Assembly (NCBI GenBank): GCA_023489335.1
Contig: JAMDCP010000007.1
Location: 186,001 to 250,000, forward strand
Source of the DNA: Deltaproteobacteria bacterium
GTDB taxonomy: Bacteria > SZUA-79 > Acidulodesulfobacterales > Acidulodesulfobacteraceae
Reading direction: 5' to 3'
Length of the DNA stretch: 64,000 bases
Below, in pieces: positions 1-58,349 of this stretch. A program made the position numbers and the translations under genes. The notes under the pieces were generated by a model, which worked only from the letters and a program-made list of their open reading frames with translations, searched no databases and was not told the DNA's origin. Within the stretch, counting starts at the first letter, position 1. Each line of letters begins with the position of its first letter.

Positions 1-284
1 GAATGCCCCAAAGAAAAGAAGAGGCCCACGCCAACCTGTTTTTTTCCATCATTGACAAGTTTTCTGGTAACATTATCGATTGCCGTAATATGGTCTGCGT
101 CCATGGCATGTTTCAGACCTAAAAGAAAGGCAAGCGAGCCTAAGGCTAAAAACTGCATATCGCTATAAGAAAGGTAAAAAAGAACGGCCCAACAAACAAT
201 AATAAAAAGAACAAGAAAAGAGTATAAAAAAATAATTTTAAATTTTAAGGGTTTGGAATTAAAAACATCTTTTTTGATAAACAT
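1..284 (-). CDS. NiCoT-family nickel/cobalt permease (3' end beyond window)
   Basis: The N-terminal 94 residues are visible; the rest lies beyond base 1. Residues about 16-38 are a hydrophobic membrane segment. Residues 59-66 read HAMDADHI, the metal-binding signature of the NiCoT (HoxN/NixA) family in its second membrane helix, followed by AIDNVTRK and, near residue 88, GLFFSLGHS, another family signature. The ATG at 284 is preceded by an AGGAGGAT ribosome site that lies inside the last codons of the upstream oxidoreductase gene, so the two are translationally close. The family imports Ni2+ or Co2+ across the inner membrane. Placement behind the gene for nickel-containing CO dehydrogenase suggests nickel supply for its C-cluster (inference). 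Confidence 0.93.
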   Translation of the reverse strand, partial: MFIKKDVFNSKPLKFKIIFLYSFLVLFIIVCWAVLFYLSYSDMQFLALGSLAFLLGLKHAMDADHITAIDNVTRKLVNDGKKQVGVGLFFSLGH

Positions 285-288
285 TTTA

Positions 289-1455
289 TTATCCTCCTGC
301 CAATGAATAAGGGACGCGCTTATTAATAAGAGAGAGATATAATCCGCCTTTGGCGACATCTTTTATTAATTGTACGCCATTTATACATTCATTTTCATCT
401 AAGTATATTTTCTTAATTCCTTTTGAATCTTGATGTTTCAGTGTCTTTGAGCCTCTTTGGATACCGGCGGAAAAAACCGGTAATCCAAAGAGGGTTACCA
501 CATTCATATCGGTAAAAGGGGCTGCGTATCTCTTTTTTAAACCCATCATATTTAATCCTGCAATCCTTCCTCCTTTTGCGGCATAAAACCAGATGGGATT
601 GATTTTTCTCTCTCCCTGAATTTCCATTTCAGCTATATCGCCGGCAGCGTATATATTGGGTATATTAGTTCTCATGCCGTCATCCACAATAATGCCCTTA
701 TCGACTTTAATAGAATTATCCCTTATCATCTCAAGGTTAGGCGCTACTCCTACGGCTATAACCACCAATTCACAGGGGATTATTTCTTCTTTCGTATCAA
801 TCCCTGCAATATTCCCTTTTTTTCTACATATCGCCTTTACTTCTTTTCCCGTCATTATTTTTACGCCGTTTTTTTCCATATGGCTTGTTACTAATTCTGC
901 CGTTTCGTTGTCCAGCATTCTTGGTAAAACCCTGTTATCTCTTTCTATTACAGTGACACCGACCCCTTTTTTTATAAATGCCTCCGCTACCTCTAATCCT
1001 ATAAAACCTGCCCCCACAATTACAGCCGAATTTATCTTTTTAAGATTTGAAATGATACGGTCGGCATCCGACATGGTCTTGAAGGAAAACACCCCGCCGC
1101 CTTCAATATTAGGTAATTTAGGCATAATAGGATTTGAACCGGCGGCTATCAGGAGCGTATCATAAAATAGTTCACGACCGTCGGAGAGTCTTATGCTTCG
1201 TTCTTCAACTTTAATTTCTGCAACGGCATTGCCAAATATAGTTTCCACCCTTTGTTCATCGTAAAAACGTTCATTCTTTAGATAGAGTCTATCCTTTGCA
1301 ATTTCACCGCTTAAATAGTTTGCGAGAAAACAAGGGGTATAAAAGGATTCATTTTCCTTTGATATTATTGTAATCCCGCAATTTTTATCTATTTCGCGTA
1401 TCGCCTCTACGGCGTTTAAGGCGGCGACACCGTTTCCTATAATAACTATCTTCAT
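289..1455 (-). CDS. FAD/NAD(P)-dependent oxidoreductase of the CODH cluster (FNOR)
   Basis: A 388-residue pyridine-nucleotide-disulfide-family flavoprotein. Residues 1-10 contain the FAD-binding beta-alpha-beta motif (VIIGNGVAALNA), a second dinucleotide fold near residue 145 (AVIVGAGFIGLEVAEA) binds NAD(P)H, and the C-terminal FAD motif (IYAAGDIAE) is near 268. It resembles NADH oxidase or rubredoxin/ferredoxin reductases of the NirB/NorW type. It starts 4 bp after cooS ends. The order CooS, CooF, FAD-NAD oxidoreductase is a recurring cluster in CO-metabolising bacteria, where the flavoprotein is thought to pass CODH-derived electrons to NAD(P)+. The direction of electron flow here is inferred, and a peroxide- or oxygen-detoxifying role is possible. 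Confidence 0.88.
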   Translation of the reverse strand: MKIVIIGNGVAALNAVEAIREIDKNCGITIISKENESFYTPCFLANYLSGEIAKDRLYLKNERFYDEQRVETIFGNAVAEIKVEERSIRLSDGRELFYDTLLIAAGSNPIMPKLPNIEGGGVFSFKTMSDADRIISNLKKINSAVIVGAGFIGLEVAEAFIKKGVGVTVIERDNRVLPRMLDNETAELVTSHMEKNGVKIMTGKEVKAICRKKGNIAGIDTKEEIIPCELVVIAVGVAPNLEMIRDNSIKVDKGIIVDDGMRTNIPNIYAAGDIAEMEIQGERKINPIWFYAAKGGRIAGLNMMGLKKRYAAPFTDMNVVTLFGLPVFSAGIQRGSKTLKHQDSKGIKKIYLDENECINGVQLIKDVAKGGLYLSLINKRVPYSLAGG

Positions 1456-3376: not shown

Positions 3377-3940
3377 TTAAATATTTCCTATGTTTCTTAA
3401 CATTTCCAGCGGCGTAATTTCCTTATCTTCCCGAACTAAAACAGCTTTTGCAGCTCTTTCTGCCGATAACAATCTTTTTGATTTAAAAAGCTCTTTCACC
3501 TCGCCAAAGGTAACGGCATTAGTGGGGCATGCCTCAACACAGGCAGGCTCATCTCCTTTTCTTAACCTATCGGGGCAGAAATCGCACTTCTGCGCCACTT
3601 TTATTCCATAGTCCGGAATAATTGCGCCAAAAGGACAGACCATCGCGCACATCCAACACCCCATACATTTATCGGTATTAACGTTAACGCTTCCAAATTC
3701 GTGATTCCTGTACATTGCGCCTGTAGGGCAGCCTGCTATACATGCGGCATCCGCACAGTGCATACACTTAACAGGATATGAAAATGAAAAAGCCTTTTCG
3801 ACATGAACCCTTTTCGCCGGCAAAGGAGTTTCAAAAATGGCCGAAAAGAGTTCCTTAGATAAGGAATGCTCGACCGCACAGGCAATTTCACAGGACTTGC
3901 AGGCGGTGCACCTTTCTATATTAATAAAAATTTCTTTCAT
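3377..3940 (-). CDS. cooF: CooF-like ferredoxin with four 4Fe-4S clusters
   Basis: Start chosen at 3940 (MKEIFINIERC) because a strong AGAGGGGGTGA ribosome site lies just upstream; the longest open frame would begin at 3976 but has no such site. The 187-residue product has four cysteine groups: CTACKSCEIAC, CMHCADAACIAGCP, CMGCWMCAMVCP and CDFC...CVEACP. That is the four-cluster layout of CooF/HycB/DmsB electron-transfer subunits. CooF accepts electrons from CooS and hands them to a hydrogenase or oxidoreductase. Being directly upstream of cooS (15 bp) supports CooF rather than another DmsB-like partner. No signal peptide is seen, so it is cytoplasmic. Confidence 0.9.
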   Translation of the reverse strand: MKEIFINIERCTACKSCEIACAVEHSLSKELFSAIFETPLPAKRVHVEKAFSFSYPVKCMHCADAACIAGCPTGAMYRNHEFGSVNVNTDKCMGCWMCAMVCPFGAIIPDYGIKVAQKCDFCPDRLRKGDEPACVEACPTNAVTFGEVKELFKSKRLLSAERAAKAVLVREDKEITPLEMLRNIGNI

Positions 3941-3980: not shown

Positions 3981-4036
3981 ACAAACTCACGTTATAAAAT
4001 TATTTCACTATATTAATAATTTTAAGTAAATAATTT

Positions 4037-4071
4037 TTTGATAAACGGTTAATTATATTTGATAAACGGTT
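4037..4071 (-). promoter_or_regulatory. Direct-repeat LytTR-type operator, candidate CO-responsive site
   Basis: Two exact 14-bp copies of TTTGATAAACGGTT (plus strand), at 4037-4050 and 4058-4071, start 21 bp apart. Read toward cooF, each is AACCGTTTATCAAA; the ACCGTTTAT cores are 9 bp with 12 bp between them. That matches the architecture known for LytTR-domain regulators such as AgrA (9-bp repeats, 12-bp spacer, GTT core). The site lies between the PAS-LytTR regulator gene and the cooF start, about 100-130 bp upstream of cooF. Binding by the neighbouring regulator is inferred. Confidence 0.72.
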
Positions 4072-4122: not shown

Positions 4123-4833
4123 TTATAAGTCTGTAATACCGAGTATATTCTTTAGCGCATGCATTTTCCGGCGGCTTACCGGAATCGAAGGGACTGTGTC
4201 TTTATCGAAAACTATCTTCATGTGTCCCCGAAAGTCTTGGTCTATCCTCTTAATATGGTCGGTATTTACGATAAAACATTTATGTACCAGAAAAAATTTA
4301 TATCCTACATACCGTTTGAGGATATTTTTTAAGGTAAAATGAAGATGAAACCAGCTGGTTTCTGTGAAGATTTTGCAATAATTCCCGTCCGATTGAATGA
4401 AATATATGGACCCTATATCTAAAAACTGCAATGAACCTTTGCTAATAACGGGTAATTTCTTTAATTCCATTAATCCTGTTTGCGGACTTGTCTTTGCCCC
4501 TACCTGATCGGTTACATCCAAAAACGACATAACATATATAGGTTTTAAAGAAGGCTCTTCCTGAATAACCCTGCAAACATTAATCATTAATACCTTGCTT
4601 AATACATCAACGACCATTGCATTGGGAATATCGGATTTATGCGTTTGGGATTCATTTAAGAGACCCTTGATTTTTAGCCGGCTTTTACGAGAATGGTACT
4701 GGAATATATCTTTGCCGAATCCCTGCGTTGCCGGACCTAAAGTATGTATGGCAAAATCATTCATACCGACAACTTTAAAATCCGATGAAAGCAAAACCAG
4801 TCCAATATTTGGAAAACAGTTCAGAGTTTCCAT
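4123..4833 (-). CDS. rcoM: PAS-LytTR single-component regulator, probable CO sensor RcoM
   Basis: 236 residues: an N-terminal PAS domain (about 5-115) and a C-terminal LytTR DNA-binding domain (about 133-232, with QSDGNYCKIFT, HKCFIVN and IPVSRRK). Against my recollection of Burkholderia RcoM the PAS domain follows the same pattern (ILGPA..., QLHPEKSR..., PVAM, ILMIKV). Here the segments are TLGPATQG, QYHSRKSR with His47, PNAM with Met73, and VLMINV. His47 and Met73 would correspond to the heme ligands His74 and Met104 described for RcoM. No receiver domain or partner kinase is present. The gene lies immediately upstream of cooF-cooS on the same strand, with LytTR-type repeats between. The heme and CO roles are inferred from residues and context. 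Confidence 0.8.
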   Translation of the reverse strand: METLNCFPNIGLVLLSSDFKVVGMNDFAIHTLGPATQGFGKDIFQYHSRKSRLKIKGLLNESQTHKSDIPNAMVVDVLSKVLMINVCRVIQEEPSLKPIYVMSFLDVTDQVGAKTSPQTGLMELKKLPVISKGSLQFLDIGSIYFIQSDGNYCKIFTETSWFHLHFTLKNILKRYVGYKFFLVHKCFIVNTDHIKRIDQDFRGHMKIVFDKDTVPSIPVSRRKMHALKNILGITDL

Positions 4834-4849
4834 AAGATGTAAAGAATTC

Positions 4850-5221
4850 TTATTTTATAAAATGGATGCCGATTAATACCCCAAACATTATTGTGAAAAA
4901 ACCCATCATTAAACCCATGCCCCAGGTAAATTTTTTATCGAGTATGGTAAACTTTTCATCTATTTTTCTGTCGAGTTCTGAGAACTTGGTATCGATTTTT
5001 TTGTCTAAGATGTCTATTTTACTGTCAAGTTCGGAAAACCTTATTTCAAATTCGTCAAACCTTGTATTCACATAGTCGGTAAGACCGTCGATTTTGGTGT
5101 CCACATAGTCGGTAAGGCTATCGAACCGTGCATTAAACAATTTTTCCTGTCCGTCAAAACGGGCATCGAAATATTTTTCAGGGGATATAGAAAAATCCAT
5201 AATGCGTTCCTTTGTTTCCAT
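4850..5221 (-). CDS. Small coiled-coil protein with C-terminal membrane anchor
   Basis: 123 residues. Residues about 15-95 are a repetitive amphipathic coiled coil built from units such as FDSLTDYVDTKID, FSELDSKIDILDKKID and FSELDRKIDEKF. Residues about 99-121 (MGLMMGFFTIMFGVLIGIHF) form one membrane helix, followed by K. The gene ends 16 bp before the RcoM-like gene and probably shares its transcript. I recognise no defined family; similar Bdr/DUF1640-like proteins are widespread and mostly uncharacterised. The internal repeats may vary in number between strains. Whether it has anything to do with CO sensing is unknown. Confidence 0.7.
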   Translation of the reverse strand: METKERIMDFSISPEKYFDARFDGQEKLFNARFDSLTDYVDTKIDGLTDYVNTRFDEFEIRFSELDSKIDILDKKIDTKFSELDRKIDEKFTILDKKFTWGMGLMMGFFTIMFGVLIGIHFIK

Positions 5222-7211: not shown

Positions 7212-9320
7212 TTAAACGGGAATTAGAACGATTATAAAAAACGATGCCGCAAAAACAAAAAATATGTAAAAAATATAAAGATTCAAAGAACCGTTCTGCA
7301 TCACTTCGGTCGTTACGGAACTGATTTTTTCGAAAAACCTTATCAGCGGAAGATATAAATAATACTCGATAAGCGGAAATATGTAAGAGCCGTAGCCGCT
7401 TGAATTGTGGTAGTAAGATGAATAAGGAAAAGGATTTTTAAGCTCGTAAGGATGCTGCGATGTTTTATTTTGAACCTCAGCCCTGCTTCCTTTTTTATAA
7501 ACAAGGTTAAACATTACCCTTAGAGCATTGGAAAAACCAAGCGTAGAAACCTGGGCGTGCGGATTAATTATGTTTTTACCGCCCGTCCATGCGTAATCTA
7601 CAAACCGCTTTTTTGGTTTTATTATAACCTTATACAAGATATAAAGAGCTGACAAAAGCAGTATGGATACAAAAAACAGATATACGGGGCTCGATGCGGA
7701 AAAGGAACTGTAATACGGTATAAAGATGTAATTATGTAAAATGTTTTTGCCGATATTTATGTGGTATATTAATTCCGCCGCCTTAGAAAAAACAGGCGTG
7801 TACAAAAACATAAAACCTGCAAGGGAGATACTTAACAGCGCCGGGATTATCAATGCTATGTTCATGGATGACGGAACCTCTTTTGCCCTTTTTGCCTCCT
7901 CAGACCTTGGCAGGCCAAGAAAGGTTAAACCGTATAATTTTACATAACTCGATATGGCAACGGCTGAACTTAAAGCCAGAATAGAACCGACCCCGAAAAG
8001 AAGTATCCTCGGCAAAACTCCGCTTATGTGAAAACCTAAAAAAACCACTTCGAGGTTAAGCCATTCGGAGACAAACCCGTTAAGCGGCGGAATCCCCGCG
8101 GCCGCAAGAACTCCTATAAATATCAGCGCCCCGGTTACAGGCATCCTCTTTAAAATGCCTCCAAAATCATCCATATTGTGGCTTCCGGTTTCATGCTCGA
8201 TATTACCTGCACCCATAAACAAAAGACTTTTAAAGAATGCATGATTTATGAGCGCATATAAAGATGCGACCAGCGCTAAAGCAGAAAGTCCGTATAATCC
8301 GTAATATTTATAATACAGGGATGCCCCGAGCCCCGTTAATATGAGACCCATGTTATCTACGGTCGAGTAAGAAAGTAAAACCTTAATATCATGGGTTTGA
8401 GACATATACAACACCCCAAAAAACATCGTGAAAGCGGCTACGATTAATATAATAGTCCCTATCAGCAGCGCGCTCCCTGCCGGGTGAAGAACATAAAGCC
8501 CAAACCGCATAATTCCATAAACGCCGCAAGATGTGAGTACGCCGCTTAAAACTCCCGATACTCCGGAAGGGGAAGCGGGGTGGGCTTCAGGAAGCCAGAT
8601 GTGCAAAGGAACAATCCCCATCTTTGCCCCAAACCCAAATAAAAACAGGGTAAAAACTATTTCTTTTATATAACCGGGTATCACTGCATCTTTTAGCGCA
8701 TATAGATTAAAATTGTTTGAGTATAAATACAGAACCATTAATCCAAATATTATTAACATTGCGCCGATTTCGGTAATTACCGCCATTAAAAATGCCGCCT
8801 TTTTTGTCCCTTTTATATAATGTTTGGTCATTACCAAGAAAAATGACGATATGGCCATTATTTCCCAAAAAATCATAAATACGAAACCGTTAAAGGCAAT
8901 GATAACAAAATAAACGCTTACAAGCATTACTCCGTATAAAAAAGCAAATAATGCCGCGTTTATTCCCGACCCTAACTTTTTGACATATCTTATCTGATAT
9001 AAAGAAATATAAAAAAATATTGCAAAAATAAATAATATAAAAAAATTGCTTAGCGCATCAAATTTCAACACTACTCCGCCCGCAGGAAAAAAACTGCCAA
9101 GATAAAGCACACGGCTCAAGAGATTTCCACCTTTAAAAAACGCAATTACGGAAAACGAAACCGCCGTTAAAGAAGCCGCCATATAAAGAATATTTGAAAA
9201 AACAAAGTTGTTTTTAAGTTTTTTTAATATCAAACCTAAAAATGAAACTAATATCCCTGCTGCAGAAAAAATTAAGAATAAATAATAATAATTTAAAGGA
9301 TTCAACAGGCTTAAATTCAT
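7212..9320 (-). CDS. Hydrogenase-4-like antiporter subunit (HyfB/HycC/NuoL type)
   Basis: 702 residues with about 16 membrane helices. The proton_antipo core includes the lysine-bearing helix HAFFKSLLFMGAGNIEH and the segment FGAKMGIVPLHIWLPEAHPASPSGVSGVLSG, both typical of ion-translocating NuoL/M/N and HyfB proteins. A C-terminal extension ends in amphipathic and membrane segments, as in HyfB. Its start overlaps the stop of the ferredoxin-small-subunit fusion by 4 bp (ATGA), indicating translational coupling. It should move H+ or Na+ across the inner membrane, driven by electron transfer in the peripheral arm. Confidence 0.9.
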   Translation of the reverse strand: MNLSLLNPLNYYYLFLIFSAAGILVSFLGLILKKLKNNFVFSNILYMAASLTAVSFSVIAFFKGGNLLSRVLYLGSFFPAGGVVLKFDALSNFFILFIFAIFFYISLYQIRYVKKLGSGINAALFAFLYGVMLVSVYFVIIAFNGFVFMIFWEIMAISSFFLVMTKHYIKGTKKAAFLMAVITEIGAMLIIFGLMVLYLYSNNFNLYALKDAVIPGYIKEIVFTLFLFGFGAKMGIVPLHIWLPEAHPASPSGVSGVLSGVLTSCGVYGIMRFGLYVLHPAGSALLIGTIILIVAAFTMFFGVLYMSQTHDIKVLLSYSTVDNMGLILTGLGASLYYKYYGLYGLSALALVASLYALINHAFFKSLLFMGAGNIEHETGSHNMDDFGGILKRMPVTGALIFIGVLAAAGIPPLNGFVSEWLNLEVVFLGFHISGVLPRILLFGVGSILALSSAVAISSYVKLYGLTFLGLPRSEEAKRAKEVPSSMNIALIIPALLSISLAGFMFLYTPVFSKAAELIYHINIGKNILHNYIFIPYYSSFSASSPVYLFFVSILLLSALYILYKVIIKPKKRFVDYAWTGGKNIINPHAQVSTLGFSNALRVMFNLVYKKGSRAEVQNKTSQHPYELKNPFPYSSYYHNSSGYGSYIFPLIEYYLYLPLIRFFEKISSVTTEVMQNGSLNLYIFYIFFVFAASFFIIVLIPV

Positions 9321-10150
9321 TTAAAATCACCATTTTTGATTAGCAATAAGACATTTAATATTTCGAACGGATTTGGCGGACAGTGGGGCAAGGCAATAAC
9401 ATTGTCTTCCTCGAAAAGTTTTTTGATTTCACTTTCGTTGTTAAATAATAATCCCTTATTACCGCCGCCGTCTTTAAAGCCGTTTTCGAATACGCCGCCG
9501 GTCAGGGGGCAGGAGCCGGTTAGAACAACATATCTCGGTTTTGGAATATTATCCAAAACATTAAAAAATATATCGGACATCTTTTTAGTGAAAGTTCCCG
9601 TAACCAATAACACATCGGCAAATCTTGGACTCGGGGTTATAAAAATACCAAGCCTGTGCATATTGTAATACGGATTGTTCAATGCATTGATTTCAGCCTC
9701 GCATGCCCCGCAAGACCCTGTATCTATATGTTTTACAAATAGCGATTTTTTAAAGGCTTTTCTCTTATCGGCATAAGGTTGCGAGGCTATACCGAAATCA
9801 AAATCCTTGCTATAACTTATTGCGCCCGCAATATTGCTGCAAGCGTCGATACATAATCCGCAAAAAATACATCTGTTTGCATCGAGCGGTTTTAATGCCG
9901 GCGCGCCCTTCCCGTTTTCGCCGCCTGCTAAATTTTTCAGGTTAATCGCTTTAGTCGGACAGGCAAGCTCGCATTTTCTGCATTGAAACTCGCTGCTTTT
10001 CTCTGGCGAACCAGCCGTTTTGTCCTGGCTTAGACACTTTTGCCCGTTGATTTTTACCGATGAGATAAAGCCGTCGTAAAAATCGTTTTCCTTCGGAAAT
10101 TTTACCGATTTTATCCCAAATTTTAATCCGTTATAAGTCCAGAAAGCCAT
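9317..10150 (-). CDS. Fused ferredoxin and hydrogenase small subunit (HyfH-HyfI type)
   Basis: 277 residues. Residues 1-115 are a two-cluster ferredoxin: second cluster CIFCGLCIDAC (94-104), first cluster C57, C60, C64 with its fourth ligand perhaps C39 rather than the usual adjacent Cys. Residues 138-270 are a NuoB/HycG-type small subunit with the proximal-cluster cysteines C147, C150 (GSCGAC), C214 (TGSCP) and C257 (PHCPPNP), the CxxC spacing of hydrogenases rather than the CC pair of NuoB. HycF and HycG are normally separate proteins. The fusion lies between the large subunit and the HyfB-like subunit. It should carry electrons through three FeS clusters to the large subunit. Confidence 0.88.
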   Translation of the reverse strand: MAFWTYNGLKFGIKSVKFPKENDFYDGFISSVKINGQKCLSQDKTAGSPEKSSEFQCRKCELACPTKAINLKNLAGGENGKGAPALKPLDANRCIFCGLCIDACSNIAGAISYSKDFDFGIASQPYADKRKAFKKSLFVKHIDTGSCGACEAEINALNNPYYNMHRLGIFITPSPRFADVLLVTGTFTKKMSDIFFNVLDNIPKPRYVVLTGSCPLTGGVFENGFKDGGGNKGLLFNNESEIKKLFEEDNVIALPHCPPNPFEILNVLLLIKNGDFK

Positions 10151-10172
10151 TTACGCACCTTAATTAGCTGAT

Positions 10173-11303
10173 TCATTTATCGGCGGCGGCAACCGAAAAA
10201 TTATAGCTTGTCTCGTTAATATTAAAATCCATCATCATAGTATTTTTAACTCCGCAGGCAAATAACTTATAATTATTGCCAAACGGATATTTTATATTTA
10301 TTTTTTTAAAAACGCTTCCGTCAAAGTCTGCCGCATAGCAAAAAATTGGACCCTCGGAAGATTCCGCATAACCGAAGCCGTGTTTTTTTGTGCGCTCGTC
10401 TATTTCCTTCATGTTAACGAAATAATCCGAAGTATTATTAAATCTATTTTTTTTAAGCATTTCTAAACAATAATCAAGTATAGATAATGATTGGGTAATC
10501 TCTCCTATCCTGACCATATACCTTGAAAATGCATCGCCGTCATTAAATATAATACTATTTAGTTTTGTATCGCCGTACAAAAGATAAGGCCTTTTAATCC
10601 TTAAATCCGGGTTTATTCCTGCGCTTTTTGCAACAACACCCTTTGCGCAAAACCGCTTTGCCGTTTTCATATCTATTTTTCCCGTGGTTTTTAGCCTGTC
10701 TATATGAGACTTCGTCTCCATATTTTTTTTAATGATTTCTTGAACGCTATTTACGATGGATTTAACGGAATTAAAAATAAATTCCATATCGTTTAAAGAT
10801 AAATTTTTTCTAACTCCTCCTATCATATTAATACCCATTAAATAACGGGAATTTAAAAATTTCACGAATAACTGCTTCAGCATTTCTGCATAATAGGCAT
10901 ACATGGCCGAAGGTACCTGAATATAGGTTGATTCCGCTATTTCGGATAAGTTTTCTATATGATTTCTAATTCTTTCCGCTTCCGCAAAAAACATCCGTAA
11001 AATTTGCAGGTTTTTATGAATTTTATCGGCAAGCCCAAAAAAATTTTCAACGCTAAGGCAATAGCTAAGCGACGCGCTAAAAGCGTGAAGCCCCGATATT
11101 CTTTCTACGACTAAAACCTGTTCGTATAAATTACCCTTTTCAGCCAGAACATTCCTAACATCCCTTTTTTTATATCCGAATGTTATATCTAAATTATGAA
11201 GCTCTTCTCCCGATGACAAAAATTCGTACAAAATAGATTCGTTGACGCCCTTTCTGACCGGACCCCAGATAAACTCGTAATCCCCCAAAAACTTCTTTTG
11301 CAC
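10173..11303 (-). CDS. Hydrogenase-like large subunit lacking the NiFe ligands (Ehr type)
   Basis: 376 residues, homologous to HycE/HyfG/NuoD without the N-terminal NuoC domain. NiFe hydrogenases have an RICGIC motif near the N-terminus; here residues 68-76 are RISGLHAFS, with Ser70 and His73 in the cysteine positions. The C-terminal DPCxxC motif is DFNINE at 359-364, with no cysteine. All four NiFe ligands are therefore absent, so the protein cannot bind the metal site and should not evolve H2. This matches the energy-converting-hydrogenase-related (Ehr) and Mbx/Mbs-like complexes, which keep the architecture with another or unknown electron acceptor. The reaction is unknown. Confidence 0.87.
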   Translation of the reverse strand: MQKKFLGDYEFIWGPVRKGVNESILYEFLSSGEELHNLDITFGYKKRDVRNVLAEKGNLYEQVLVVERISGLHAFSASLSYCLSVENFFGLADKIHKNLQILRMFFAEAERIRNHIENLSEIAESTYIQVPSAMYAYYAEMLKQLFVKFLNSRYLMGINMIGGVRKNLSLNDMEFIFNSVKSIVNSVQEIIKKNMETKSHIDRLKTTGKIDMKTAKRFCAKGVVAKSAGINPDLRIKRPYLLYGDTKLNSIIFNDGDAFSRYMVRIGEITQSLSILDYCLEMLKKNRFNNTSDYFVNMKEIDERTKKHGFGYAESSEGPIFCYAADFDGSVFKKINIKYPFGNNYKLFACGVKNTMMMDFNINETSYNFSVAAADK

Positions 11304-11322
11304 TTTTATCCCCTTATATTAT

Positions 11323-12804
11323 TTACTTTATTATTATAATATGCGTAATCCCCATTAATAAACGATAAAGGTTTCCCGGTATATAAAATCCTAAAATTAT
11401 CAATGCCGCGAGCGGCAAGGCCATCGGCAAAACGGACGCCAATCCAAAATCGCCCTTTTGAATATTTAAACTATTATCGTCTTTTCCGAAAACAATAGAA
11501 CCCACTTTCGACAATAAACTAACAAATGCCGCAATCAAAAGGCTTACAAGTACAATCGCCACCGCATAATAACCGTTTTTTAAACTTTGAAGTATAATCA
11601 AAAATTCGCTTATAAAGGTTACTGAAGGCGGAGACCCGATTAATGCAAGCACGCCGATGGAAAATAAAAAAGCGGTTTTAGGCATAACATAAAAAACGCC
11701 TTTAATTTTTTTAATATCCTTTGTTTTGTACTTATGCAGCAAATTTCCCGAACCAAAAAACATGACAGGTTTTGCAAGGCTGTGGCCGAGCATCTGCAAA
11801 AGGGCGCCAAAAGTCCCGAACGCTCCTCCCAAACCAAAACCTAAACTAATTATGCCCATATGTTCGATACTCGAATATGCAAAAAGCCTTTTTGTCGATT
11901 TTTGGTTAATAATTCCCATTACCCCCGTAAATATTGTAAAAATACCTATAATAACCATTATTGTTTGCGGATAATTAAACCCGATACCTTTCCCCGTAAT
12001 ACTAAAATACCTCATTATGCCATACATTGCCGTATTTAAAAGAGATGCCGAAAGCATGCTTGAAATGGGGGAAGGTGCTTCCGAATGGGCATCTGGAAGC
12101 CAGGTATGCATTGGAGCAAGACCGACCTTAGTGCCTAACCCTATTACGATTAAAACAAATGCAAACCGTATTATATCTTTGTTAAGATAAACGGCGTTTA
12201 AGCGTAAAGTTGTCCAGTCTAAAGATGAAATGGTATTTGCGCTTCCGGGAATATTTCCCGAAAGATAAAATAGTATCGTCCCTAAAAGGGCAAGCGAGAT
12301 TCCCGCCGAAACTATCAATATATATTTCCATGCCGCTTCTATTGACTTTTCCGTAACCTCCGCAATAACTAAAAAAGCGCTTGCTATTGTGGTAAGCTCT
12401 ATGTCTATCAGGTAAATTGCCATATTGTTAATCATTGGAGCCATAAGCATCGTCAGGGCAAACAGATTTAAAAAAAGATAATACCTGTTAAACTCTTCAC
12501 CAGTCAACTGTTCGCCTTCCATTGCGAGCCTCATATATGAAATAGAATACATTGACGATAAAAAATATACGATACTAACCAACAGGATTATATAAGCGCT
12601 AAACTTATCTATTACTATTGCGCTGTTAAAAATAGAAATGGTTTTAAGGCTTATGGAAAAATAAAGAATAATAAATGCGCCGAGCAGGCATAAAGATGAG
12701 GACAAAAGGCTTATATATTCGGCAAATCTCTTATTTTTTATAATAAAAGAGCTTAAGGACGCAAATAATGGAATTATCAAAAATGTAATAATGAAAATCT
12801 TCAT
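11323..12804 (-). CDS. Hydrogenase-4-like antiporter subunit (HyfF/NuoM type)
   Basis: 493 residues and about 14 membrane helices. Diagnostic segments are LGTKVGLAPMHTWLPDAHSEAPSP around 220-245 and LGHSLAKPVMFFGSGNLLHKY near 338-358, holding the lysines and histidine of the ion channel. Length and sequence fit HyfF, the second antiporter-like subunit of hydrogenase-4 complexes. It lies 5 bp after the HyfE-like gene and 19 bp before the large subunit. Together with the HyfB-like protein it gives the complex two ion-translocating modules. Confidence 0.9.
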   Translation of the reverse strand: MKIFIITFLIIPLFASLSSFIIKNKRFAEYISLLSSSLCLLGAFIILYFSISLKTISIFNSAIVIDKFSAYIILLVSIVYFLSSMYSISYMRLAMEGEQLTGEEFNRYYLFLNLFALTMLMAPMINNMAIYLIDIELTTIASAFLVIAEVTEKSIEAAWKYILIVSAGISLALLGTILFYLSGNIPGSANTISSLDWTTLRLNAVYLNKDIIRFAFVLIVIGLGTKVGLAPMHTWLPDAHSEAPSPISSMLSASLLNTAMYGIMRYFSITGKGIGFNYPQTIMVIIGIFTIFTGVMGIINQKSTKRLFAYSSIEHMGIISLGFGLGGAFGTFGALLQMLGHSLAKPVMFFGSGNLLHKYKTKDIKKIKGVFYVMPKTAFLFSIGVLALIGSPPSVTFISEFLIILQSLKNGYYAVAIVLVSLLIAAFVSLLSKVGSIVFGKDDNSLNIQKGDFGLASVLPMALPLAALIILGFYIPGNLYRLLMGITHIIIIK

Positions 12805-12809
12805 GTATT

Positions 12810-13484
12810 TTACCCTACTAACCTATTTAGCATGGTTGTGGAAAAAGAACCTGTCTGCGCCTTCATAAACATCGAAAGAATCAGCATTGCCACAACGGTA
12901 ACCAAAATATCGAATAAAACTACCAATTCCACGATTATCGGGAGCGTTGGAACTATGACGACGGATAAAAGAAATATTCCGTTTTCTATAACAAGTAATC
13001 CTAATATATGGGTTATCGTCGTAAACCTCGATATAATCATAAAAAAACCTATAAATATAAGGCTTAAAGCAATGGACGAAGCATTAATAACGATTTTCGG
13101 CGAAAAAGGGGAAATCAACCTGTATGCCAAAAAATAGGCAAAAACCGTTAATAATAGTCCCAGGATAATTGAAAGCGGTATCTTTACAATAAGTTTTACT
13201 TCTTCTTTAATATTGAATTTTTTAATCATTTTTAAAAGTATGTAAGGCACTATGATTGTCCTGACAAACAATGTTAAAAACGCAACAAAATAAAGGTCTA
13301 TATTTTGCGATTCGATTCCTAAAACCAATGTTAAGACGAATATTAGAAATGATTGGAAACCGTAAGCGTGGATATAAAAAGATATCCATCTCGAACTTAA
13401 CATTACAAAAGACGATAAAAGAATCAATGCAACTAAAAGGTCCTCAAGAACATAGATATAAAGCGGCATTACATATCCTAACAT
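12810..13484 (-). CDS. Hydrogenase-4-like small membrane subunit (HyfE type)
   Basis: 224 residues with about seven membrane helices and no cofactor motif. Its size and its place between the HyfC-like and HyfF-like genes fit HyfE, a NuoK-related subunit. The C-terminal half (IITRFTTITHILGLLVIENGIFLLSV) includes the membrane glutamate expected of NuoK-like proteins. It probably bridges the HyfC-like and antiporter-like subunits. The call rests on gene order and topology more than on sequence identity. Confidence 0.82.
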   Translation of the reverse strand: MLGYVMPLYIYVLEDLLVALILLSSFVMLSSRWISFYIHAYGFQSFLIFVLTLVLGIESQNIDLYFVAFLTLFVRTIIVPYILLKMIKKFNIKEEVKLIVKIPLSIILGLLLTVFAYFLAYRLISPFSPKIVINASSIALSLIFIGFFMIISRFTTITHILGLLVIENGIFLLSVVIVPTLPIIVELVVLFDILVTVVAMLILSMFMKAQTGSFSTTMLNRLVG

Positions 13485-13521
13485 CTTTCTTTACCCTAAA
13501 AATGTTTTAATTTAAAAAAAT

Positions 13522-14481
13522 TTAAAAGCCCTTATATTGAAATGTCATTATCGCAAGAACGCTTAAAACGAATGCGGCGGCAAAATACTCCTGATACCTG
13601 AAAAATCTTAATCTTGAAATAGCCGTATCTATAACCCCTGCTACAAACCCCACGATTAACATTTTTACGATGAGGCTGATGATTGCGATAATAAGGCCGC
13701 TCGGGCTATGATTAACGGATAGTCCCCATGGAAAAACCAATACATTCAAAAAAATCACTAAAAGTAAAAATTGTTTCATATACCCCGACCATTTTAAGAG
13801 AGCTAAATATGGGCCGGAATAATCCAGAATTCTTGCCTCTTCAATCATGCTCATCTCGACATGGGTTGAGGCGTTAATAGGCCTTCTATCCGTATCCGCT
13901 AAAAATAAAAGAAAGAAGGCGACTATAATTAAGAAATGGGGCGGACTAAAATAAAGAGATAAGGACGAGGTTATAGTATGCAGCATTACATAAGGCAGCG
14001 TGGATTGCGCGATCAAAGCTACGCCCACAAAAACGAGAATAAGGGTGGGCTCCGAAAGAATTGCAAGAAGGGTCGCGCGCGACGAACCCAACCCCCCGTA
14101 GCTCGTGCCAAGGTCAAGGGAGGCAATGTTTATAAAAAACGACGAAAGGGAAAAAAGAAACGCCCCTCCAAGCATATCGCCCATAAATCCAAGGGGAAGC
14201 GGATATATGGTTAAAACCGGAATAAGAAGGGTGATAAGCACCATCGAAATAAAAGAAACGAATGGAGCCGACTTAAAAATAAACGAGGCATCGACCGGTA
14301 TTAAGATTTCTTTATGAAAAAGTTTATAAAGATCGTAATAAGGCTGAAAAACCGAAGGGCCTGTTTTCCCCTCGAAAATTTCCTCTATTTTACTAATAAA
14401 TCCGGCAATAAACGGAGAACAAGCAAGAACGGTTAAAACTTGAAAAATTTGAAAGACGGTTGAATTTAAATAGATGTTCAT
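13522..14481 (-). CDS. Hydrogenase-4-like membrane subunit (HyfC/NuoH type)
   Basis: 319 residues, eight membrane helices, first gene of the complex operon. GPSVFQPYYDLYKLFHKE (about 38-55) and THVEMSMIEEARILDYSGPYLALLKW (about 205-230) are the conserved cytoplasmic loops of NuoH/HycD/HyfC that contact the small and large subunits. It couples electron transfer in the peripheral arm to ion movement. The upstream region has a sigma70-like promoter and a leader hairpin. No HyfA-like ferredoxin is encoded at this locus. Confidence 0.9.
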   Translation of the reverse strand: MNIYLNSTVFQIFQVLTVLACSPFIAGFISKIEEIFEGKTGPSVFQPYYDLYKLFHKEILIPVDASFIFKSAPFVSFISMVLITLLIPVLTIYPLPLGFMGDMLGGAFLFSLSSFFINIASLDLGTSYGGLGSSRATLLAILSEPTLILVFVGVALIAQSTLPYVMLHTITSSLSLYFSPPHFLIIVAFFLLFLADTDRRPINASTHVEMSMIEEARILDYSGPYLALLKWSGYMKQFLLLVIFLNVLVFPWGLSVNHSPSGLIIAIISLIVKMLIVGFVAGVIDTAISRLRFFRYQEYFAAAFVLSVLAIMTFQYKGF

Positions 14482-53326: not shown

Positions 53327-54469
53327 TTATTTACCGGCGGCCCTTCCTCTTATCGGCTCATAAATACAATACGGCTCTTCCTCCATATAATCACCTTTTT
53401 CATAATAAGCCCTTGCCCTGCATCCTTCGCATACCTTTTTATATTCGCAAATGCCGCATTTACCCTTTAAAAGGCCGGTATCCCTTAAGTTTAAAAAGAC
53501 TTCGGAACCGTTCCACACTTCACTGACGGTTTGCTTCGTAACATCCCCTGCCTGAACAGGCAGATAACCGCATGGCTGGACAATGCCTTTTCTCGATATG
53601 AACATAACGCCGCTTCCGGCCAAGCAACCCTTGGTAACAGCGGCCATGCCGTGAGTTTGAGGGGAAATAGTTATGCCTTCGTCCTTTGCTCTTTTATGCA
53701 TAATCCTAAAAAAATGCGGGGCGCAAGTTGCTTTAAGCTCGATCCTGCCTCTTAACTCCATAGTCTTATCGTAAAACCATGATAATATGTCTTCGTATTT
53801 TTGTTTATCGAGCATTTGTGAATCCGCTATCTGAACGCCGCAGCCGACGGGTACGAGCATAAATATATGAAGAGCCTTTATGTTATTGTTTAAGGCTAAA
53901 TCCAATATGTCTTTAACCTCGTCTTCGTTATGCCTTGCAATAGTGGTATTTATTTGAACTTCGACGCCTTTTTTTTGCAGATTTTTAATGCCGTTAAATG
54001 CGCTTTCGAAAGAACCGGGTATCATTCTGAATGTATCATGGGTTTGCGGGTTTGCCCCGTCTAAACTTATGGAAACCCTTTTAATGCCGCTTTCTTTAAT
54101 CCGTTCCGCAACCTTTTCGTCCACTAATGTGCCATTGGTAGCAAGAGCGACCCGAAGGCCCTTGCCTGCGGCATAACCGGCAATATTAAAAATATCATCC
54201 CTGTATAACGGCTCACCGCCGGTTAAAATAAGGATGGGGGAGCTAAATTTGCATAACTCGTCTATAACGGTAAAGCACTTTTCCGTCGAAAGCTCGTCTT
54301 CCTGCCTTTCCGTCTGAGCCTCGGCGCGGCAATGAATACATTTTAAATTGCATCTTGCGGTAAGCTCCCAAAAGACTAATCTCAACTCGTTTTTTTTCGG
54401 CAGCGGCAACCCGCCGCCGTGCATTTGACCCGGGTGGCCGGCAGGCATAGAGATATTTTTATTTTCCAT
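53327..54469 (-). CDS. ahbD: AhbD-like radical SAM heme synthase (Fe-coproporphyrin decarboxylase)
   Basis: 380 residues with start at 54469, where GAGGAGATATACA precedes the ATG; the longer frame from 54484 has no ribosome site. Radical SAM CNLKCIHC, GGEPL and, at the C-terminus, SPASM-type cysteines (CGYLP, CGICEYKKVCEGCRA). AhbD converts Fe-coproporphyrin III to heme in the siroheme-dependent pathway. It partners AhbC, whose 3' end it overlaps. The siroheme decarboxylase AhbA/B genes are not in the window. Confidence 0.85.
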   Translation of the reverse strand: MENKNISMPAGHPGQMHGGGLPLPKKNELRLVFWELTARCNLKCIHCRAEAQTERQEDELSTEKCFTVIDELCKFSSPILILTGGEPLYRDDIFNIAGYAAGKGLRVALATNGTLVDEKVAERIKESGIKRVSISLDGANPQTHDTFRMIPGSFESAFNGIKNLQKKGVEVQINTTIARHNEDEVKDILDLALNNNIKALHIFMLVPVGCGVQIADSQMLDKQKYEDILSWFYDKTMELRGRIELKATCAPHFFRIMHKRAKDEGITISPQTHGMAAVTKGCLAGSGVMFISRKGIVQPCGYLPVQAGDVTKQTVSEVWNGSEVFLNLRDTGLLKGKCGICEYKKVCEGCRARAYYEKGDYMEEEPYCIYEPIRGRAAGK

Positions 54470-55649
54470 TGTATATCTCCTCATCGGTTAAATAGCAAGC
54501 GGGGTCCGGCGCCCAAAGGTCTCCTTCTTTCGCCTCCGACCTGACCCTGAAGTTGCCGTTACAAATGTCGAGCCATTTACAGTTTTCGCATCTTCCTTTT
54601 ACATAAGCCTTTTTATTTTTAAGCTGTTTCATAAGCTGATTCGAGGTATCCGTCCATATCTCGCTAAACTTTCTTTCCTTAATATTGCCAAATGAATAGT
54701 GCCTCCAAAATTGGTCGGCATAAACCTCGCCGTCCCAGCTGACGCAGCCGATTCCAACCCCGGAACTGTTGCCCCCGTTCATTTTAAGGAGATTCATGAC
54801 ATTTTCCGCTTCTTCCCGTTTGCCCTCTTTTAAAAGCTTTAAATAAATATACGGGCCGTCGGCATGATTATCGACGGTAAGAACTTCTTTTGAATTATCC
54901 CTTGAATAAATCTCTTTTGTGAGTTCTAATATCGTATCGACCGTCTGCCTCGTTTCTTCTAAAGATAAATCCTCATCTATTAGCTTTGTTCCCCTGCCCG
55001 CGTAAACAAGATGATAAAAACAAACCCGCGGGATATTTTCTTCTTCTAAAAGTTTGAAAATACCGGGAATTTCCTGAGCGTTTCTTTTATTCACGGTAAA
55101 GCGAAGCCCGACCTTAATTCCCGCCTCCTTAGCATAGTTAATTCCTTCCAGAGCCTCCCTGAATGCGCCCTTTTTGCCCCTGAATCTGTCATGAACCGCC
55201 TCGAGCCCGTCTAAACTAATACCCACATAAGACAGTCCCACCTTTTTTAATTCGGAGGCTAATTCCTTGGTAATAAGGGTTCCGTTAGTAGAGATAACCG
55301 CCCTCATGCCTTTAGACTTTGCATAAAAACACAAATCAAGAAAATGCGGATGCATTAGCGGTTCGCCGCCAGAAAAAAGCATAACGGGGGAACCGAATGC
55401 CGAGATATCGTCTATAAATGCCTTGCCCTCTTCAAGCGTAAGCTCATTGTTATACTGAAGGTTTTTAGATTGGGAATAGCAGTGAATACAATTTAAATTG
55501 CAAGTTCTTGTCATATTCCATACTATTACCGGCTTTTTATCTTCGGAAAATTGTAAAAGGTGGGAGGGCAGTTTGCTCGACATGCGCCCGTAACGAAGGG
55601 CATCGGAGGCATGGACCCCGCCGCAATAAAGTTTCGATATTCCTATCAT
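54459..55649 (-). CDS. ahbC: AhbC-like radical SAM protein (12,18-didecarboxysiroheme deacetylase)
   Basis: 396 residues. The MIGISKLYCGGVHASDALRYGR start is characteristic of AhbC. Radical SAM CNLNCIHC (about 51-58), GGEPLMHP, and SPASM cysteines in CVSWDGEVYAD and CENCKWLDICNGN. It removes acetate side chains of didecarboxysiroheme to give Fe-coproporphyrin III. Together with AhbD it shows that heme is made through siroheme. Confidence 0.88.
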   Translation of the reverse strand: MIGISKLYCGGVHASDALRYGRMSSKLPSHLLQFSEDKKPVIVWNMTRTCNLNCIHCYSQSKNLQYNNELTLEEGKAFIDDISAFGSPVMLFSGGEPLMHPHFLDLCFYAKSKGMRAVISTNGTLITKELASELKKVGLSYVGISLDGLEAVHDRFRGKKGAFREALEGINYAKEAGIKVGLRFTVNKRNAQEIPGIFKLLEEENIPRVCFYHLVYAGRGTKLIDEDLSLEETRQTVDTILELTKEIYSRDNSKEVLTVDNHADGPYIYLKLLKEGKREEAENVMNLLKMNGGNSSGVGIGCVSWDGEVYADQFWRHYSFGNIKERKFSEIWTDTSNQLMKQLKNKKAYVKGRCENCKWLDICNGNFRVRSEAKEGDLWAPDPACYLTDEEIYNGK

Positions 55650-55712
55650 TATATAATTACTCCTTAATTTAATTTTTAGCCGTAATTCTAATGCTAAACT
55701 TCAAAATTTATT

Positions 55713-57362
55713 TTAAATCGTATTTTTTTGATAAAATTCGACAATTCCATCTATTAACGAATCTATATCGACATCTTTAGATATTATATCAGATTTAATG
55801 CCAAACCCCAACGCATATTTAGCCGTCTTTTCCCCAATGCTTGCAAATTTAACTCCCGAGTCCATAATCCTCTTCAAAAGCCCTTTCTGAATGCCTTCGA
55901 CTAAATTGGCAAAGTTAAGGACAGTTGAGTAACTTGTAAAGCTCACAACTAAAGAATTTAATGCGAGGTCATCCGGAAGGCCTATATTTTTATGGAGCCT
56001 TTTTGCATCGGCACCTTTCGTCGCTATAAGGGAACTAAAAATTTCGCATAGCTCTTCTTTTGATTTTTCAGGCGCAACGGTTTCATAAACGGGCAAATTC
56101 TCTAAAATTGCCCCTTTCGATATGAGAAATTCCGGAAGCTCGGCGTTTATTTTCAAGGCCTGGGGAAAAAGAATTCTTTTACCTTTAAGTTCAATATCTT
56201 TAATAGTGTCTATTATACCTGTCTGGGAAAATTCGGCAGGGATAATATCCGGAACTATGCCGTATTTTTTTAACTCCGATGATGTGATTTTGCCCACGGA
56301 AATTATTTTTTTGCCGAAAAGCGACCTTGCGTCTAACCCCTTCAAAAAAAACTCGTCAAAAAATCCCGAAACACCGTTAACGCTTGTAAAAATGATATAA
56401 TCGTAATCCTTGATATTTTTTATTGCCTCATAAATCTTGGATTTATCTATATTACTTCCGCCTTTAACCACCTTTATAAGCGGCAGGTTGATTACGAAAG
56501 CCCCCAGCCTTTTAAGCCTGTGCGAAAGAGTGCCGGCCTGACCCTCCGCCCTTGTAACCATCACTTTTAAACCGCTTAGCGGTCTTCTTTCAAACCAGTT
56601 CAGTATTCCTCTGAGTTTAACGACATTCCCGACAATAAGTATAAGCGGACTTTTTAAGCCCTGCCTTTCAGCCTCGCCTTTAATCGTAGCCAGTGTCCCC
56701 GTTGCCGCCTTTTGATTTAAAGTAGTCCCTTCCTGAATCACGGCACACGGGGTATCTTTACCTTTTCCCGAAGAAATTATATTTTTAGCAATAGAATCCA
56801 GATTTTTATGCCCCATTAAAATTACTATCGTGTCCGCGCCGACTAATTTATCCCAATTTATCGTGCTTTTTTCCTTGTGTTCCCCTTCATGTCCCGTTAC
56901 AATTGCAACCGTAGAGGCATAATCCCTGTGGGTCAAGGGGATGCCGGCATAAGCCGGAACGGCAAAAGATGAAGAAATGCCGGGTATTATTTCAAACGGG
57001 ATTGCATCTTTAAAAAGCCTTTCGGCCTCTTCCCCGCCCCTTCCGAATAAATAAGGGTCTCCCCCCTTAAGCCTGACAACAACCTTATTTTCTTTGGCTT
57101 TTTCTGCCAAAAGTTCATTAATCGAATATTGCGGAAGACTGTGATTTGACGACCTTTTACCCGCATAGATTATCTCGCACCCTTCTTTTGCGTAGGATAA
57201 AATCTCTTCCGAAATTAAACTGTCATATACGATGACATCCGCCTCCTGCAAAACCGTTTTAGCTTTAAGGGTCAAAAGCTCCGGGTCTCCGGGTCCCGCA
57301 CCCGTAAGGTAAACCATTCCTGTTTTTGAATTGCCGCGGCCTTTATTGCAGTTTTTAACCAT
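55713..57362 (-). CDS. cobA-hemD: CobA-HemD fusion: uroporphyrinogen-III methyltransferase and synthase
   Basis: 549 residues. Residues about 17-255 are a SAM-dependent uroporphyrinogen-III C-methyltransferase (VYLTGAGPGDPELLTLKA, LKGGDPYLFGRGGEE, GISSSFAVPAYAGIPLTHR). Residues about 265-549 are uroporphyrinogen-III synthase HemD. The product of the fusion is precorrin-2, the precursor of siroheme. It is adjacent to hemC. An AAGGAGATT ribosome site precedes the ATG. Confidence 0.92.
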   Translation of the reverse strand: MVKNCNKGRGNSKTGMVYLTGAGPGDPELLTLKAKTVLQEADVIVYDSLISEEILSYAKEGCEIIYAGKRSSNHSLPQYSINELLAEKAKENKVVVRLKGGDPYLFGRGGEEAERLFKDAIPFEIIPGISSSFAVPAYAGIPLTHRDYASTVAIVTGHEGEHKEKSTINWDKLVGADTIVILMGHKNLDSIAKNIISSGKGKDTPCAVIQEGTTLNQKAATGTLATIKGEAERQGLKSPLILIVGNVVKLRGILNWFERRPLSGLKVMVTRAEGQAGTLSHRLKRLGAFVINLPLIKVVKGGSNIDKSKIYEAIKNIKDYDYIIFTSVNGVSGFFDEFFLKGLDARSLFGKKIISVGKITSSELKKYGIVPDIIPAEFSQTGIIDTIKDIELKGKRILFPQALKINAELPEFLISKGAILENLPVYETVAPEKSKEELCEIFSSLIATKGADAKRLHKNIGLPDDLALNSLVVSFTSYSTVLNFANLVEGIQKGLLKRIMDSGVKFASIGEKTAKYALGFGIKSDIISKDVDIDSLIDGIVEFYQKNTI

Positions 57363-57368
57363 TTATTT

Positions 57369-58349
57369 TTAAATCTCCTTTTTATTATCACAAAAATCGT
57401 TGTTTTTATTCAGTATCTCGAGACCGCCTTTATTTATTAAATTTAAAGACAGGCTTTTGCCGATATTTTCATAATCCGTTTTTTTACCGGCAGCCTCATC
57501 TTCTAAGTATTCTCCGTGCAGGTTAGAGACAAAACCTTTGATATGCAGGTTATCACCCTCGATATGCGAATAAGCCCCGACGGGAGATGCGCATCCGCAG
57601 CCTAACCCTTTAATGCATGCCCTTTCGGCAAAAACCGAAAACTTCGTGTCTTCGTCGTTCAATGGTTTAATTATTTCGCCGATGTCCGCTCTGGAGCCTT
57701 TATATTCTAAAGCTATCGCACCCTGTCCGCACTGGGGAATAAATTTAAAAGGGTCCAGATAAACATCTATACAGGATGAAAGATTAAGCCTTATAAGGCC
57801 GCTCGACGACAGGACGATAGCATCGAAAAATCCGTCTCTTAATTTCTTAAGCCTTGTATCGATATTGCCCCTTAACGGTTCAAATATTATGTCATCCCTC
57901 AAGCGGGCAAGCAAAGCTCTTCTCCTGAGGCTCGAGGTTCCGACTATCGCGCGGCTTTTCAATAAAGATGCAAAATTTACGGAATCAAATCCGCCGGAAG
58001 ATTCAGGTTTATCCTTTAAAATAATGCAATCCCTCGGGTCATCCCTTTTTAACACCGCACCCAGCGTCAACTCTTCGGGTATTGCCTGCGGTACATCCTT
58101 CAAACTGTGCACGGCGATATCTATATCTTCATTAAAAAGGGCTTCTTCTATTTCTTTTACAAATAGTCCTTTGCCGCCAAAACTGCTAAGCGATGCGGTT
58201 AAAATCTTATCGCCCGAGGTCTTAATAGTTTTTATTTCGATATCTATTTTTTTATTTTTACCACCGAAAAGCTGTTTTATTTTATCCTTTACAAGATTAG
58301 CCTGATATAACGCAAGCTTGCTTCCGCGCGTTCCTATTTTTAGTTTCAA
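57369..58349 (-). CDS. hemC: Porphobilinogen deaminase
   Basis: 326 residues. KLKIGTRGSKLALYQA, AVHSLKDVPQ and GTSSLRRRALL are substrate and catalytic motifs, and GLGCGCASPVG holds the dipyrromethane-binding cysteine. It polymerises four porphobilinogens into hydroxymethylbilane. It lies between hemA and cobA-hemD on the same strand. Confidence 0.96.
   Translation of the reverse strand: MKLKIGTRGSKLALYQANLVKDKIKQLFGGKNKKIDIEIKTIKTSGDKILTASLSSFGGKGLFVKEIEEALFNEDIDIAVHSLKDVPQAIPEELTLGAVLKRDDPRDCIILKDKPESSGGFDSVNFASLLKSRAIVGTSSLRRRALLARLRDDIIFEPLRGNIDTRLKKLRDGFFDAIVLSSSGLIRLNLSSCIDVYLDPFKFIPQCGQGAIALEYKGSRADIGEIIKPLNDEDTKFSVFAERACIKGLGCGCASPVGAYSHIEGDNLHIKGFVSNLHGEYLEDEAAGKKTDYENIGKSLSLNLINKGGLEILNKNNDFCDNKKEI

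Follow-up and report, generated by a model that had tools for sequence, protein, structure and literature searches.

The closest described relatives of the regulator considered here are RcoM-1 and RcoM-2 of Paraburkholderia xenovorans, which control aerobic cox genes. Their heme ligands include His74 and Cys94, with the Cys94 thiolate bound to the Fe(III) heme. Met104 is a further published ligand. Beyond the aerobic systems, rcoM (GSU2099) precedes cooS in Geobacter sulfurreducens, and similar clusters occur in its relatives and in Pelobacter (PMC4703632). An rcoM gene ahead of cooS has also been published for Rubrivivax gelatinosus (PMC4257681) and Deferribacter autotrophicus (PMC6896113). 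RcoM has been proposed as the regulator of the Geobacter, Pelobacter and Deferribacter clusters (PMC4703632, PMC6896113), and a survey of Ni-CODH/ECH loci places a putative RcoM among their regulators (PMC13077300). The original prediction for the locus described below held that an RcoM in front of a nickel CO dehydrogenase (CODH) would extend the known targets of the family. That extension was already in print (PMC4703632, PMC4257681, PMC6896113); nickel CODH is a known class of RcoM target, and no new class is added here.

The window, a stretch of 64,000 nucleotides from a deltaproteobacterial contig of the Acidulodesulfobacterales, carries such a gene next to a coo operon (Table 1). With a probability of roughly 0.8, its product is read here as an RcoM-family one-component sensor that detects CO through a heme-PAS domain and turns on transcription of cooF-cooS-FNOR(-NiCoT), the operon downstream. 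The identification is sound, and both the regulator and its setting are of types already described. Homology, residue alignment, synteny, operator conservation and the presence of siroheme-route heme genes were computed here. Neither CODH nor RcoM comes up in the publication that describes Ca. Acidulodesulfobacterales; the presence of this pairing in the lineage may be new, as may the operator and the differences in heme ligands.

Table 1. Coordinates of the regulator, its predicted control region, the coo operon and the heme genes within the window
Feature	Position	Strand	Basis
rcoM-like gene, PAS-LytTR one-component regulator, 236 aa	4123..4833	-	ORF, LytTR Pfam, cox-linked RcoM homology, tree
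PAS sensor domain, residues ~8-112	4498..4812	-	predicted structure, PAS fold matches, PAS-only BLASTP to cox-linked RcoM
LytTR DNA-binding domain, residues 137-231	4141..4425	-	Pfam PF04397 E 8e-20; VIA-align
His47 codon, predicted proximal heme ligand (RcoM His74 equivalent)	4693..4695	-	invariant in 37/37 aligned PAS-LytTR proteins
Met73 codon, predicted CO-replaceable heme ligand (RcoM Met104 equivalent)	4615..4617	-	alignments
Operator box 1, ACCGTTTATCA	4060..4070	-	direct repeat, period 21, all 19 window-clade loci; unique in genome
Operator box 2, ACCGTTTATCA	4039..4049	-	same basis as box 1
Candidate -35 hexamer TTTACT	4025..4030	-	10 bp after 9-bp core of box 2; position conserved in relatives
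Candidate -10 hexamer TGAAAT, 17-bp spacer	4002..4007	-	weak, 4/6; AT-rich region, placement unsure
cooF-type ferredoxin-like 4Fe-4S protein	3377..3940	-	start MKEIF behind GGGGGTGA Shine-Dalgarno, conserved in relatives
cooS, nickel CODH catalytic subunit, 633 aa	1460..3361	-	TIGR01702 696.8 bits vs cut-off 478
FAD/NAD(P) oxidoreductase (FNOR)	289..1455	-	Pyr_redox_2; same gene after cooS in relatives
NiCoT nickel transporter gene, 5' part	1..287	-	continues beyond window, G000:C8:185256-186287
Siroheme-route heme genes: AhbD-like, AhbC, CobA/HemD fusion, HemC-like	53327-58349	-	model matches

The regulator and its relatives

The open reading frame of 236 amino acids is real, starts with ATG on the minus strand, and has His47 (in QYHSRKSR) and Met73 (in PNAM) where the original prediction had placed them. 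LytTR is its sole Pfam hit up to E 1, and neither the Pfam PAS model nor a heme-specific model matched its N-terminus. By the same search an identity as CooA was rejected, the effector and helix-turn-helix domains of a CRP/FNR-type protein being absent. An AlphaFold2 structure, predicted from a 32-row alignment with the plasmid-derived rows left out, has two domains and is confident (mean pLDDT 83.1). Its strands and helices follow the order of a PAS domain over residues 10-106. In this model His47 lies between a short helix (43-46) and the helix spanning residues 49-62, while Met73 lies on strand 72-77. Foldseek and VIA-align assign the N-terminal half to PAS domains and the C-terminal half to LytTR domains, the latter with VIA-align Z scores of 15.6 to 3d6w and 13.1 to AgrA 3bs1. 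A sequence search of the solved structures found LytTR domains only and no RcoM. The heme PAS domains of E. coli DOS, FixL and Aer2 are among the fold matches, and because many non-heme PAS domains match as well, the PAS fold alone does not show heme.

Relatives encoded beside coxMSL in Paraburkholderia and Caballeronia served as the RcoM reference, standing in for the P. xenovorans proteins. The LytTR protein of P. aromaticivorans plasmid pBN2, whose gene adjoins OmpW and coxMSL, aligns with the window protein from end to end in BLASTP (30% identity, 246 columns, E 7e-27), and the PAS part on its own reaches 36% identity over 114 columns (E 9e-17). The proposed RcoM homology over the whole protein is supported. 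At the protein level, 19 records out of 72,556 plasmids had a hit, and the PAS part was matched in only three of them, all from Burkholderiaceae (P. aromaticivorans pBN2 and two Caballeronia strains) and all beside coxMSL. The rcoM gene on the plasmids of Caballeronia sp. SBC1 and SBC2 (L016) is frameshifted near its C-terminus in both strains. Receiver-LytTR proteins match the window protein over the LytTR domain only. Among 84,980 species genomes scanned, nine full-length relatives were found, every one upstream of cooS, and they come from the host's own phylum, Nitrospirota and Thermodesulfobacteriota. Further relatives were added from two profile searches of 395 genomes each.

A tree of 37 PAS-LytTR proteins, drawn unrooted with only a midpoint root and with two long-branch joins flagged, separates a window clade of 19 rows (100/100), the cox-linked RcoMs with three rows (98/94) and a clade C of 15 rows (100/98). 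The window clade and the cox-linked RcoMs together form a 22-row group on one side of the 100/98 branch, against clade C. The original prediction had allowed for a protein that grouped with non-heme PAS-LytTR regulators; the window clade instead falls in with the cox-linked RcoMs (100/98). In one Nitrospirota-group genome (L067, L073) coxMSL is immediately preceded by a cox-linked RcoM in which the Cys and the Met are both present. On this sequence evidence the window protein is a divergent member of the RcoM family, and its identification as an RcoM stands. A separate observation concerns the gene at 4850-5221 on the same strand, whose product is a small protein with a coiled coil and a membrane segment at its C-terminus; the gene ends 16 bp upstream of rcoM. 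It is not found upstream of rcoM in the relatives, and homologues lie elsewhere in the sister genomes.

Predicted heme ligands and heme supply

As the original prediction had anticipated, His47 and Met73 fall at the RcoM ligand positions, aligning with His75 and Met105 of the P. aromaticivorans pBN2 protein. Counted on the sequence, His75, Cys95 and Met105 of that protein have the published ligand spacing of P. xenovorans RcoM with the numbering one residue off. The Met73 segment is free of gaps in the pairwise alignment; in the large alignment the cox-linked Met is one column off. Both residues are invariant in a 12-protein alignment, and in the 37-protein alignment L066 is the one window-clade row out of 19 that lacks Met73. 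Cys94 has no counterpart, as no Cys occurs between His47 and Met73 of the window protein; the cox-linked RcoMs all carry a Cys 10 residues before the Met. In clade C (L025-L041) the invariant His is retained and the position of Met73 is filled by Ile, Leu or Phe, which hints that an RcoM-like sensor may ligate heme in another way.

The question of whether heme is bound at all bears on a reading in which the protein merely resembles RcoM, being a PAS-LytTR regulator free of heme whose signal is a metabolite or another protein. PAS domains sense many ligands, and a protein of this kind would agree with an N-terminus that meets no heme-specific model and in which a fold match cannot show heme. 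It would be harder to reconcile with the pattern of conservation, in which the rest of the PAS domain diverges while His47 stays in all 37 proteins and Met73 stays in the window and cox-linked clades, or with the heme b route encoded in the genome. This reading is considered very improbable. With respect to that route, AhbC scores over its cut-off and the AhbD-like protein, at 484.6 bits, just under its cut-off of 500; together with the CobA-type methyltransferase fusion they span 53327-57362. No ferrochelatase was found in the host genome. Judged by its heme b route genes, the organism can supply heme.

If heme is bound, the signal could still be something other than CO. A heme-PAS regulator descended from RcoM might sense O2, NO or the redox state, with coo induced by anoxia rather than by CO. 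E. coli DOS, which with FixL and Aer2 represents the O2-sensing heme PAS domains matched by the predicted fold, also ligates its heme through His and Met, and the absence of the Cys redox ligand from the window protein may be counted on the same side. In G. sulfurreducens, CODH proteins go up with formate or hydrogen, and a rise of RcoM is unreported (PMC7894505). Such a sensor is nevertheless quite unlikely here, since the nearest characterised family is a CO sensor whose Fe(II) ligands are both kept in the window protein, and a CO-oxidising enzyme is the genetic neighbor at 16 of the 19 window-clade loci, where rcoM lies beside cooS across three phyla.

The preferred reading of a CO-sensing RcoM may be taken one step further, although at somewhat less than even odds. 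The window clade would be an RcoM clade dedicated to Ni-CODH in three phyla, sensing CO with a His/Met heme that does without the founder's Cys redox switch and acting through a two-repeat operator of its own. With the Met lost as well from the sister clade found beside other cooS genes, RcoM-like sensors would employ no fewer than three sets of heme ligands, matched to lifestyle. The absence of the Cys here and of the Met in the sister clade provides natural variation with which to ask what ligands the CO switch needs on its heme.

Predicted operator, candidate promoter and the coo cassette

The 182 bp gap between rcoM and cooF contains ACCGTTTATCA twice in identical form, at a spacing of 21 bp. 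The degenerate pattern occurs at a single place in the 1.8 Mb host genome (reversed control 0). At all 19 window-clade loci a two-box operator, ACCGTTYATCA with a period of exactly 21, lies between rcoM and the next gene. Its score exceeds all 500 dinucleotide shuffles at 18 of these loci (L065, P 0.006), in a test that is partly circular as the consensus was read from some of the same 19 loci. A chance match of two boxes is unlikely because of the exact period, the same site downstream of rcoM, and the fact that the window-type operator scores only at background level at L067, a cox-linked locus (P 0.62), and at most loci of clade C. When 395 Nitrospirota-group genomes were searched with up to two mismatches, five of the six matching places lay beside a window-clade rcoM. 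No third box was found by eye, nor was the three-repeat TTCNNGCA operator of P. xenovorans-type RcoM, two ACCGTTTATCA repeats being present instead.

In LytTR-regulated operons, 9-bp repeats stand 12 bp apart and most often 10 bp before the -35 element (PMC6193735). The window-clade operator shows this activator geometry, with the period of 21 at 19/19 loci and the best -35 hexamer, mostly TTGA.., exactly 10 bp past the 9-bp core of box 2 at 17 of the 18 loci checked. The window's own -35 and -10 hexamers are weak. A consensus promoter scan did not call the proposed promoter and counted no more sites than in shuffles; the proposed promoter rests instead on its conserved position. Taken together, the sequence comparisons make the window-clade operator a well-supported new element, in all likelihood a conserved DNA switch site in the promoter.

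The placement of the gene upstream of a nickel CODH operon is borne out, as the genes for CooF, CooS and an FAD/NAD oxidoreductase come after it, likewise on the minus strand. The cooF reading frame is open from 3976, and its start is taken at MKEIF. For CooS, the closest solved structure is 6elq, and its C-cluster His and Cys positions are conserved in the alignment. FNOR is the probable electron outlet of CODH. The NiCoT gene scores 317 bits with NicT (below the cut-off of 450) and 314 bits with TIGR00802 (just below the cut-off of 333); it also lies downstream of FNOR at L002 and L003, and a nickel transporter in this place fits a nickel enzyme. The usual order is rcoM-cooF-cooS-FNOR, with rcoM-cooS-cooF-FNOR at L007, L008, L010 and L065. 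By ORF reading, the neighbors of rcoM at L023, L024 and L066 are a ferritin-like, a rhodanese-like and a beta-helix-like gene. Since these three clade members lie away from cooS and keep the two-box operator, with L066 lacking the Met, the target need not always be CODH. Among 30 genomes of the host phylum, RcoM occurs in three, and CooS over the curated cut-off in exactly those three. In one genome (G001:C26, L085:5989-6427) a second rcoM, truncated to about 83 codons, runs into the last 61 codons of NiCoT across the junction GTATTA, and an intact rcoM lies elsewhere in the genome. As far as the sequence of this junction tells, it is the scar of a deleted rcoM-coo-NiCoT cassette.

By analogy with the RcoM family, the steps of heme binding, CO binding, ligand exchange, DNA binding and activation may be envisaged as follows. 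The PAS domain would hold heme b between His47 and Met73, and CO would displace Met73 from the Fe(II). This change would free the LytTR domains of a dimer to bind both ACCGTTYATCA repeats, which lie on the same DNA face at a distance of 21 bp, and the bound dimer, just upstream of the -35 element, would recruit RNA polymerase. CooS would then oxidise CO and pass the electrons to CooF and on to FNOR. Because the operator sits downstream of rcoM, the gene is not obviously autoregulated; its expression is probably constitutive rather than autoactivated, perhaps together with the gene at 4850-5221.

What the cassette is mainly for may be considered separately. Left of the window (G000:C8:176065-184248) lie nifHDK, a further nitrogenase-type gene and a nifV-like gene, next to the coo/NiCoT operon. 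Because CO inhibits nitrogenase, removal of CO may protect it, and it could be that the cassette serves here chiefly to keep CO from poisoning the nearby nitrogenase rather than to gain energy; nifHDK and nifV are on the same contig, 1.4 to 10 kb beyond FNOR and NiCoT. The product of cowN is known to protect nitrogenase from CO. In Rhodospirillum rubrum, rcoM adjoins cowN (PMC4257681). Such a main role is unlikely, given that in the two sister genomes no nif genes adjoin the cassette within the contig stretch read, and that FNOR points to a use of the electrons. A membrane complex resembling Hyf/Ech is encoded elsewhere in the window (7212-14481, minus strand; large subunit 10173-11303) and is likely, by its sequence, to be hydrogenase-related but without a nickel site. 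Production of H2 from CO by this Hyf-like complex was considered and rejected; the large subunit matches NuoD and not a hydrogenase model, and no NiFe-type CxxC is seen by eye.

Comparison with known systems

The useful additions made here are the new operator and the natural variation in heme ligands. For an acidophilic lineage that has not been cultivated, the locus offers a concrete unit of control over anaerobic CO oxidation that can be put to the test, made up of a sensor, two candidate ligands and a 32-bp operator. Being conserved across phyla, the operator lends itself to a direct test of CO-dependent activation with a reporter in a laboratory host.

Among regulators of CO oxidation genes, CooA is likewise a one-component heme CO sensor of coo operons; however, it is a CRP/FNR-type protein of another fold (PMC11347149), whereas the window protein combines LytTR with PAS. 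CoxC of Afipia, an MHYT-LytTR protein, is also a LytTR regulator of CO oxidation genes that binds direct repeats, but it is a repressor with a copper-bearing membrane MHYT sensor (PMC11347149), so that the LytTR part alone is held in common. The clade C proteins of the Thermodesulfobacteriota group share the architecture, the invariant His and the cooS neighbor; they differ in the residue at Met73, in forming a separate clade (100/98) and, for the most part, in having no window-type operator above background.

The clusters of G. sulfurreducens, Pelobacter and Deferribacter, with the order rcoM-cooS-cooC-cooF-FNOR, resemble the window in having an RcoM-type gene before an operon for nickel CODH, CooF and FNOR, a likeness judged on gene content. 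The window has the order rcoM-cooF-cooS-FNOR-NiCoT and no cooC in the operon. Compared with P. xenovorans RcoM, the window protein is about 30% identical, has a loop before the Met that is four residues shorter and without Cys94, and faces a nickel CODH in place of coxMSL. Its operator has two ACCGTTYATCA repeats as opposed to three TTCNNGCA repeats (PMC11347149). Shared with the P. xenovorans proteins are the PAS-LytTR architecture, with a divergence-free full-length alignment, LytTR direct repeats with a period of about 20-21, and, as judged on the P. aromaticivorans and Caballeronia relatives, a His and a Met at the CO-switch positions.
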